From Sphingomonas cannabina (lineage in GTDB: Bacteria > Pseudomonadota > Alphaproteobacteria > Sphingomonadales > Sphingomonadaceae): DNA of 64,000 nt. The notes below the pieces were generated by a model, which searched no databases, was not told where the DNA came from, and was given only the letters and a program-made list of their open reading frames with translations. Positions 42,072 through 51,630 of this stretch are shown one piece after another (the first letter of the stretch is position 1; every line of letters begins with the position of its first letter). Both the position numbers and the translations under genes were made by a program. The stretch lies in contig NZ_CP090059.1 of the NCBI RefSeq assembly GCF_021391395.1, positions 1,535,001 to 1,599,000 on the forward strand, read 5' to 3'.

Positions 42072-42357
42072 CTTGCAATGTAGGATTTCGCCTGCTTGGC
42101 TCGTCGGGTCCGAGCTGCGCGAGGCGCCGGCCCGCTCTTTGATCCTGTCGATCCCATCCCGCGTCGCGCCGCTGTCGCGTCCCCGCCGCATCCCTGGCGC
42201 GTCAGCGTCGCGCTGCTGGCGCGCCTCTGTCGCGCCCTTGGCGCGCCGGTGTCGCGCCGCTGTCGCGTTGCCGTCGCATCCCTGTCGCGTCGGCGCCGCG
42301 TTCCCACGTGCCGGCTCGCGTGCACCTGCCCCGAGTCAATTTAGTCAACATTTTCGG
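42072..42357 (+). repeat. Dispersed element, copy A: conserved ends around a 13-unit, 11-bp-period array
   Basis: This fills most of the 532-bp gene-free stretch 41931-42462. Left end CTTGCAATGTAGGATTTCG, then TGCTTGGCTCGT and CCGCTCTTTGA. Right end CCCGAGTCAATTTAGTCAAC (then ATTTTCGG). Between them, 42166-42308 splits without gaps into thirteen 11-mers of consensus GCGYCNCTGTC. The same ends and the same unit (GCKTCCCTGTC) occur at 51134-51402 on the other strand. Reading frames are not conserved between copies, so it is probably non-coding. The rest of the gap holds nothing I recognise. Confidence 0.8.
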
Positions 42358-42462
42358 GGCAATCCGACACCAGAAACGCAATCCGGAAAGGGGCCCGCTC
42401 TACCCGTGACTTTCGTGACCTTCGACGGATTTCCGCGGGTTTCCGGCGCCTGTCGCCGTCTC

Positions 42463-51133: not shown

Positions 51134-51402
51134 CCGAAAAAGTTGACTAAATTGACTCGGGGCGCGTGTCTGCGAGCCTACGCTGGGAAGGCTGCGTCGA
51201 CGCGACAGGGAAGCGACAGGGAAGCGACAGGGAAGCGACAGGGAAGCGACAGGGAAGCGACAGGGACGCGACATGGACGCGACATGTGTGCGACGCGGAC
51301 GCGCCATGAGCGCGGCACGGGAATGAACGGGGTCAAAGAGCGGACCGACGCTCGCGGACGTCGGAGCGCACGAGCCAAGCAAACGAAATCCTACATTGCA
51401 AG
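51134..51402 (-). repeat. Dispersed element, copy B: conserved ends around a 9-unit, 11-bp-period array
   Basis: This is the main content of the 541-bp gene-free stretch 51090-51630. Read on the minus strand it starts CTTGCAATGTAGGATTTCG, continues TGCTTGGCTCGTGCGC and CCGCTCTTTGACC, and ends CCCGAGTCAATTTAGTCAAC plus TTTTTCGG, the same ends as 42072-42357. The core 51204-51302 is nine 11-bp units, five of them identical (GCTTCCCTGTC). It sits between the convergent ThuA-like and P450 genes. Confidence 0.85.
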
Positions 51403-51467
51403 GGCGGCAGGGCGTCCGCACTCAACAGTGGCGAACCTGCCTTGTGCTTTTCCGTATGAGACCGAAT

Positions 51468-51543
51468 CGTGCTCCTGCGAAGGCAGGAGCCTTGGCCGAG
51501 AGCGCCTCGGCTTGCCAGGGCTCCTGCCTTCGCAGGAGCACCG
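51468..51543. repeat. REP-like palindromic repeat (GTGCTCCTGCGAAGGCAGGA type)
   Basis: Arms GTGCTCCTGCGAAGGCAGGA and GGCTCCTGCCTTCGCAGGAG are inverse copies separated by about 25 bases, with further pairing CGAGAGCGCCTCGG inside. A separate hairpin CCCCTCCTCCTGAAGGGGAG lies at 51571-51595, just past the P450 stop, and might help end that transcript. Confidence 0.8.
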
Positions 51544-51630
51544 GTTTCATTTCTTCGGACAGACCATAGCCCCTCCTCCTGAAGGGGAGGGGTTAGATTG
51601 CCGAACGTCGATCAGTCCCTGCTTTCAGGT

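Follow-up and report, generated by a model that had tools for sequence, protein, structure and literature searches.

What kind of element places a gapless array of 11-bp units between the same two ends twice within 9 kb? The question is raised by a 64-kb stretch of the Sphingomonas cannabina genome (64,000 nucleotides of NZ_CP090059.1, called the window throughout), in which the two copies are named A and B. Our analysis suggests that these copies belong to an undescribed bacterial repeat family with a partner gene, made up of dispersed copies and of a gene-carrying unit with the same parts. The element order is a left box (L), a boxA-like word, an optional 11-bp array and a right module (R) consisting of a tandem word pair; the gene, called HTH1 for simplicity, encodes a small helix-turn-helix protein. 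This anatomy, its recurrence, the recurring spacings and the association of HTH1 with the array are established at the level of sequence. The parts of the two window copies are as follows.

Copy A, 42072..42090, plus strand: L box CTTGCAATGTAGGATTTCG, exact; a promoter-like left end with a -35-like TTGCAA and a predicted transcript start at about 42108.
Copy A, 42134..42142, plus strand: boxA-like word GCTCTTTGA, the same word as in a Sphingomonas rRNA leader (L258).
Copy A, 42166..42308, plus strand: array of thirteen 11-bp units, found by lag-11 self-match and by Tandem Repeats Finder.
Copy A, 42330..42349, plus strand: R1, tandem word pair GTCAATTTA-GTCAAC, exact (the pair at 42335-42349).
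Copy A, 42406..42423, plus strand: R2, second tandem word pair GTGACTTTC-GTGACCTTC, read as GTGACTTTCGTGACCTTC.
Copy B, 51384..51402, minus strand: L box, exact.
Copy B, 51333..51341, minus strand: boxA-like word GCTCTTTGA.
Copy B, 51199..51308, minus strand: array of about ten 11-bp units, found by Tandem Repeats Finder and lag-11 match.
Copy B, 51142..51161, minus strand: R1 tandem word pair, exact.

The preliminary description of this locus had claimed that copy A shares its flanks with copy B and that its core consists of thirteen gapless 11-mers, and both claims were borne out. The two flanks recur exactly on the minus strand 9 kb away (0 in 100 shuffles). The lag-11 self-match is 0.659 for copy A (mean 0.343 and maximum 0.492 in 5000 shuffles) and 0.817 for copy B over 51196-51310 (shuffle maximum 0.490), and Tandem Repeats Finder detects both arrays independently. 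The end assigned to the element was too short, R2 of copy A lying beyond it; in copy B (L006) R2 was not found at ≤3 mismatches. The earlier anatomy had captured the ends and the array and overlooked the boxA, R2 and the related unit that carries a gene, as well as the resemblance of L to a promoter. Other dispersed-looking repeats (a CTCCTGCGAAGGCAGGAG type and a CCTCCCC...GGGGAGG type) adjoin the elements at window positions 51440-51600 and at several L loci.

Across this genome, L was found at 30 places and the R core GAGTCAATTTAGTCAAC at 35 (both at ≤3 mismatches; reversed-pattern controls 0 each), in agreement with the earlier view of a dispersed element with conserved ends; this recurrence excludes one of the two outcomes named there as refuting, namely flanks absent from the rest of the genome. 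In 26/30 L loci an R stands no more than 360 bases after L, and in L030, the gene-carrying locus, the distance is 666 bases. A boxA-like word is present at 27/30 L places and an array at 24/30. Array and flanks had been taken as one unit; both are real, and the array is optional, as it is missing in L001 and L018, which carry L without the 11-bp core. R2 (≤3 mismatches) lies less than 700 bases from L in 17/30 loci, 54-68 bases past R1 in 14 of them, and L022 has R2 with no R1 between L and R2. The R pair is a perfect 8-mer tandem in 55 and a tandem with one mismatch in 61 of 149 elements, compared to a shuffled mean of 1.74 mismatches (three of the 152 elements, L022, L029 and L030, were left out, and in copies with an array the pair found can be array units). 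The R word differs between lineages, and an element carries one or more R modules. In genome G143, several different tandem word pairs (for example TCTCAACATTCTCAACATTCGC and GCCTAACCTTAGCCTAACCTTCC) stand serially behind one boxA (L338, L346, L350, L352), as if the R modules were themselves mobile.

We then asked what the array is. Unit statistics were drawn from 279 units in 23 copies (L001, L002, L018, L022, L027, L029 and L030 excluded from the 30 L loci) and gave the consensus SYGTCGCGYYS, with positions 3, 6 and 7 invariant at 97, 96 and 99% and much of the remaining change being C/T or G/A. In 26 pooled copies, lags 11, 22, 33 and 44 match at 0.665-0.698 and the remaining lags from 2 to 43 at 0.155-0.381; a 10-bp-period array pattern had no match in this genome. 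Among the 23 copies the arrays range from 6 to 19 units, and the L-to-R lengths fall into four consecutive residues modulo 11 in 19/23 cases (matched by 0/20,000 simulations) and are spread 7/7/9 modulo 3. This phasing modulo 11 and not 3 indicates that the array gains and loses mostly whole units and is not translated, in line with the non-coding core proposed before, judged here by frame and length only. It is also what makes a core encoding a repeated peptide highly improbable: open reading frames (ORFs) of at least 100 residues do run through both window arrays, but the L-to-R lengths cover all three frames and a change of one unit shifts the frame.

The same lengths bear on a second explanation, namely a BOX-like or miniature inverted-repeat transposable element (MITE)-like parasitic repeat without host function, in which L, boxA and R would be inherited parts of a promoter and leader and the array a slipping minisatellite. 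The variable unit number with the L-to-R phase kept modulo 11 fits this explanation, as does a long run of near-identical units in L009, which is expected from slippage; the invariance of positions 3, 6 and 7 over all 279 units argues against it. The array units may also be related to R. In L020, GTGTCGCGTCG units alternate in register with GTGTTACCTCG, a word found elsewhere in the R pair GTGTTACCCTAGTGTTACC, which suggests, as far as word comparison goes, that the units of the array and the words of R belong to a single class. A gapless array as a form of clustered regularly interspaced short palindromic repeats (CRISPR) was rejected, copy A having 11-bp units without unique spacers. Of the two roles considered in the preliminary description, a structured RNA found little backing, with folding z-scores in the window of only -1.44 for copy A, -1.13 for its other strand and -0.33 for copy B; the longer copy L009 folds better than its shuffles (z -2.46), and an Rfam scan of 10 loci gave no match at gathering score. 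The other role, cooperative protein binding, has geometry to recommend it. DNA makes a turn in about 10.5 bp, and an 11-bp spacing puts neighbouring units on the same face. Over thirteen units the drift exceeds half a turn, so contacts spanning four or five neighbours are likelier than one rigid stack over the whole array.

A candidate for the binding protein is offered by the gene-carrying unit.

G000 (this genome), C1:293357-294022, minus strand: L030, the single unit of this kind in the genome, order L-HTH1-array-R; the HTH1 ORF encodes 114 residues with a helix-turn-helix and adjoins a uracil-DNA glycosylase gene.

HTH1 has 282 homologues at E≤1e-3. Where the matches listed carry a name, it is most often 'LysR family transcriptional regulator'; 'hypothetical protein' and 'AraC-like DNA-binding protein' also occur, as does 'transposase-like protein' in two cases. 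At the stricter E≤1e-14 the protein is present in 31/295 genomes of the genus, this one included. For 30 loci, one per genome (36 matches), we scanned 77-base windows in the 450 bases that follow the HTH domain, a range that takes in the end of the ORF. A lag-11 self-match of at least 0.5 was found in 29/30 loci, while the other lags from 6 to 16 reached the array threshold in at most 4/30; upstream of the domain, lag-11 periodicity was present in 0/30. Among more distant HTH paralogues (L091-L116), 0/26 loci showed 11-bp periodicity at a threshold of 0.55. Within 200 bases upstream of HTH1, L is present in 14 loci and its inverted core TCCTACA in 15, together 29/30, and an in-frame start codon stands at L position 38 in 19/30 and at 38-40 in 23/30. 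Retention of the array behind HTH1 at 29/30 loci, one per genome, speaks against pure slippage, and the often conserved spacing from L to the start codon or to boxA likewise speaks against a repeat with merely inherited parts. The proposal of cooperative protein binding is thereby strengthened in one part, a like array being found behind a helix-turn-helix gene; the binding as such we infer from sequence.

The HTH1 protein is modeled as four helices with low-confidence ends (mean predicted local distance difference test score 74), and the model matched no solved structure at E≤1e-3. Comparison with Pfam gave HTH families below the cut-off and one unrelated weak match, with no catalytic domain found. 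By flank similarity the 30 loci form nine groups, which indicates that more than one genomic position is used, although single loci may simply have diverged too far for grouping; the uracil-DNA glycosylase gene adjoins three loci, that of this genome included. A decayed-looking L-gene-array-R unit was noted in another genus, on plasmid pBSY17_1 of Sphingobium sp. RAC03 (L257, 442724-445763; 18 records in the plasmid search, with a 40-base array match at E 4e-6). Its R pair is in 11-bp register with the array, whose units mix in register with R-like words.

To characterize L independently of the other parts, 116 L places in 13 genomes were picked on L alone. A boxA is present in 77/116, 25-95 bases from L with one mismatch allowed, and starts at positions 36-40 from the first base of L in 46/77 and at 51-75 in 31/77. 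Among the 39 L places without boxA, an ATG stands at position 37 or 38 in 15, the next commonest position having 3. Some of these ATGs open long frames of unrelated proteins, read from their translations as a protein of 494 residues, a short one resembling phage repressors and several with a helix-turn-helix, and others open short frames only. In two species (L064 and L083), position 37 counted from an L-like box holds the start ATG of 494-residue proteins that resemble each other. Two species (L029 and L077) have an L-like box ahead of a tRNA-Trp gene, and L077 then has a GTTCN7GTTC box. The simplest reading is that L is a promoter from which transcription would begin near position 37 and yield either leaderless mRNAs or boxA-led RNAs.

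The boxA word itself is that of rRNA leaders: plasmid-borne operons carry GCTCTTTGACATTG in Sphingomonas sp. R1 (L258), GCTCTTTCTCATTG in S. paeninsulae (L259) and GTTCTTTGACATTG in a Sphingobium and a Novosphingobium, and both Sphingomonas spellings occur in the elements. L as an rRNA promoter was rejected, since no L at ≤3 mismatches precedes boxA in these four leaders (the record of a fifth, L262, is not long enough for the comparison). A boxA downstream of L in 77 places, in 46 of them near the inferred 5' end, would also be found if the copies gave functional regulatory RNAs, driven by L and made resistant to Rho by boxA, with array and R acting as a sponge or as antisense to a convergent gene. 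Natural CRISPR arrays have been reported to carry boxA upstream (PMC7862264, citing Stringer 2020). Against such RNAs stand the structure of the window copies, which does not exceed that of shuffles, and the absence of an Rfam match in the 10 loci scanned.

A second form of L, TTTCCTACA-N12-42-GCTCTTT, contains the L core TGTAGGA inverted and has 41 matches in 19/121 genus genomes (reversed control 1). Downstream of 30 such loci, a perfect 8-mer tandem was found in 13 and one with a single mismatch in 10 (7 and 35, respectively, in 150 shuffles), and some loci hold several word pairs in series. In six loci (L325, L331, L339, L340, L343, L348) a perfect GTTCN7GTTC, which we take to be the LexA box of alphaproteobacteria, lies near the -10 region of the promoter preceding boxA, suggesting DNA-damage control of non-coding boxA transcripts.

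How widely is the family distributed, and how do copies change? At ≤2 mismatches L occurs in 13/61 genomes, the copy number per genome ranging from 0 to 43, and apart from a single weak match every occurrence is within the genus. In a large contig scan, nearly all of the 80 named rows among the matches listed are Sphingomonas or Sphingomonadales, the exceptions among them including a 'Proteobacteria' bin and a Clostridiales bin (the scan counts are lower bounds, and the few elements retained from other organisms are probably chance matches). Arrays are present at 24/30 L places here compared to 3/15, 0/10, 3/41 and 1/7 in four relatives. Among the 122 elements listed in the scan, 7 have arrays at lag 11, as against 5 at lag 12 and none at lag 10, indicating that outside this genome arrays are uncommon and in part noise. 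The copies in the window resemble non-coding derivatives that were amplified in this genome.

One subfamily was compared in Sphingomonas sp. 7/4-4: of 13 copies fetched, 11 can be aligned across the element. They end abruptly at common points and are flanked by direct repeats that are imperfect and roughly 20 bp long. Related species keep L and boxA at several orthologous sites where the interior and R differ. At three orthologous sites of Sphingomonas sp. 7/4-4 and Root241, R differs, with coding flanks mostly 90-100% identical. At orthologous sites in two close species (L195/L196, L168/L173, L165/L189), with flanks conserved to the same degree, the element interiors (50-150 bases from L) are 55-82% identical. 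A genome-specific co-change of R words was considered and rejected: Root241 also has the 7/4-4 type (L157, L172), which limits the claim to element contents turning over at fixed sites. The place of L172 aligns throughout in 7/4-4.

Gene context was determined with a home-made codon-model gene finder (31 of 152 elements near stretch ends and then 5 of 121 were dropped). Of the remaining 116 elements, 70 lie between convergent genes, 22 and 16 between genes on the same strand in the two orientations, and 8 between divergent genes, counts taken without a matched intergenic control. In the pneumococcal repeat paper, such a convergent-gene bias is taken as a sign of mobile, parasitic repeats (PMC3049150), and the 70/116 observed here is a point for the parasitic repeat introduced above, which we nevertheless hold to be rather unlikely overall in view of the retained arrays, invariant unit positions and kept spacings. 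For regulatory RNAs, the direction mostly toward the 3' end of the convergent gene is favorable and the near-even orientation in tandem context (22 vs 16) is not; we consider them unlikely. The convergent position would also suit an array that serves as a Rho-loading stretch ending transcription between convergent genes. The top strand of the array is indeed poor in A, and its pyrimidines recur regularly every 11 bases (A 0.049, C 0.376, G 0.338, T 0.237), but C barely exceeds G, a boxA directly upstream is expected to counter Rho, and most boxA elements in other species lack the array. We regard this role as very doubtful.

The reading that we favor, a modular L-boxA-array-R family with promoter L, HTH1-bound arrays and non-autonomous spread, is as a whole plausible enough to pursue and somewhat short of an even chance. 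L would act as a promoter from which transcription begins about 37 bases in. HTH1 would be read from a leaderless mRNA, and the non-coding copies would yield boxA-led RNAs whose boxA may recruit the Nus-factor complex. HTH1 or a relative would bind the 11-bp units as a cooperative cluster, possibly together with the R words, so that the HTH1 unit would be self-regulated and the scattered copies would be further binding loci. The copies would spread as non-autonomous mobile elements and persist mainly between convergent genes; as no catalytic domain was found in HTH1, cutting and joining are assigned to another enzyme. More tentatively, this may be a new type of element in two parts: HTH1, whose leaderless mRNA would contain, behind the gene, an array of its own sites, and a boxA-led non-coding swarm with the same promoter, array and end words that is controlled by HTH1 or parasitizes it. 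With some promoters overlapping GTTCN7GTTC boxes of the LexA type, such a system may respond to DNA damage.

Several observations weigh against this reading of a mobile, HTH1-bound promoter family. Many boxA copies, those of G004 above all, have a poor -10 region behind L (judged by eye), for which reason the promoter is put forward as a conjecture, and not every ATG at L+37/38 opens a long frame. Some of the 30 HTH1 loci share flanks at 85-92% identity and do not count as independent. The genomes G140 and G143 have 8 and 11 TTTCCTACA-boxA copies and no HTH1 at 1e-14, and L-rich genomes are weakly linked to HTH1 (Fisher p 0.037; 0.005 only when a contig-end HTH1 start in G004 is counted). No clean empty site was found among 201 genus genomes, in which the listed matches to the neighbourhood of copy A were one-sided; in 7/4-4 the first element of L177 is unmatched at its place and the flank is rearranged, so that this orthologous comparison is not clean. 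Terminal inverted repeats are not general: an inverted L (≤3 mismatches in 14) is present in 12/152 elements (controls 3 and 0), mostly in one group of species. A hairpin before boxA was also tried as a fixed part and given up; its stem averages 5.69 paired bases in 118 long forms vs 4.93 in their shuffles, yet 4.76 in this genome, and for the latter value it is not counted as part of the element.

If the proposed family is real, boxA extends past rRNA, CRISPR leaders and a handful of genes to small repeats that carry it to tens of places in a genome, and the influence of the Nus complex across the genome could be put to the test. Bacteria would also possess a repeat family whose partner gene encodes a DNA-binding protein lacking a recognized transposase domain, and between convergent genes the elements would install a promoter together with an antitermination signal, both ready for use. 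Whole-unit changes of the array are possible strain markers and natural tests of helical phasing.

A literature search by titles and abstract openings, with subscription journals mostly outside its reach, found no description of an L-boxA-array-R element among the papers listed. By analogy of architecture, the nearest kind appears to be the BOX elements of Streptococcus pneumoniae, which have the form boxA-boxB(n)-boxC (PMC3049150). Both have end modules around a variable tandem core, an intergenic position, an excess between convergent genes and a core that can open ORFs (PMC3049150). The Sphingomonas elements differ in their 11-bp unit, in a promoter-like left module with an rRNA-type boxA behind it (the pneumococcal boxA shares only the name), in a right module made of a tandem word pair, in the helix-turn-helix gene that shares ends and array, and in window-copy RNA folding not above shuffles. 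A second likeness is to repetitive extragenic palindromic sequences (REPs) and bacterial interspersed mosaic elements (BIMEs) with their REP-associated tyrosine transposases (RAYTs), where palindromic REPs with a GT(A/G)G head stand on either side of the transposase gene (PMC2817692). Many non-coding copies beside a gene unit with the same sequences, and lineage-specific end words, are common to both, whereas HTH1 has no catalytic domain that we found and R is a direct, not inverted, pair. Plasmid iterons are directly repeated units near the gene of a DNA-binding protein; the HTH1 unit has direct repeats beside such a gene as well, but its array lies downstream and the repeats are dispersed on the chromosome. 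The boxA-led CRISPR arrays (PMC7862264) likewise have a leader boxA before an untranslated tandem array, whereas the Sphingomonas units of 11 bp are without spacers and the copies are scattered. Outside rRNA, boxA has been described at suhB and at a toxin-antitoxin gene, with few expected per species (PMC5725501). The present boxA would, as predicted from the word, similarly be a NusB/E site outside rRNA operons; unlike the suhB type, it stands at 27/30 L places of one genome and in non-coding repeats.
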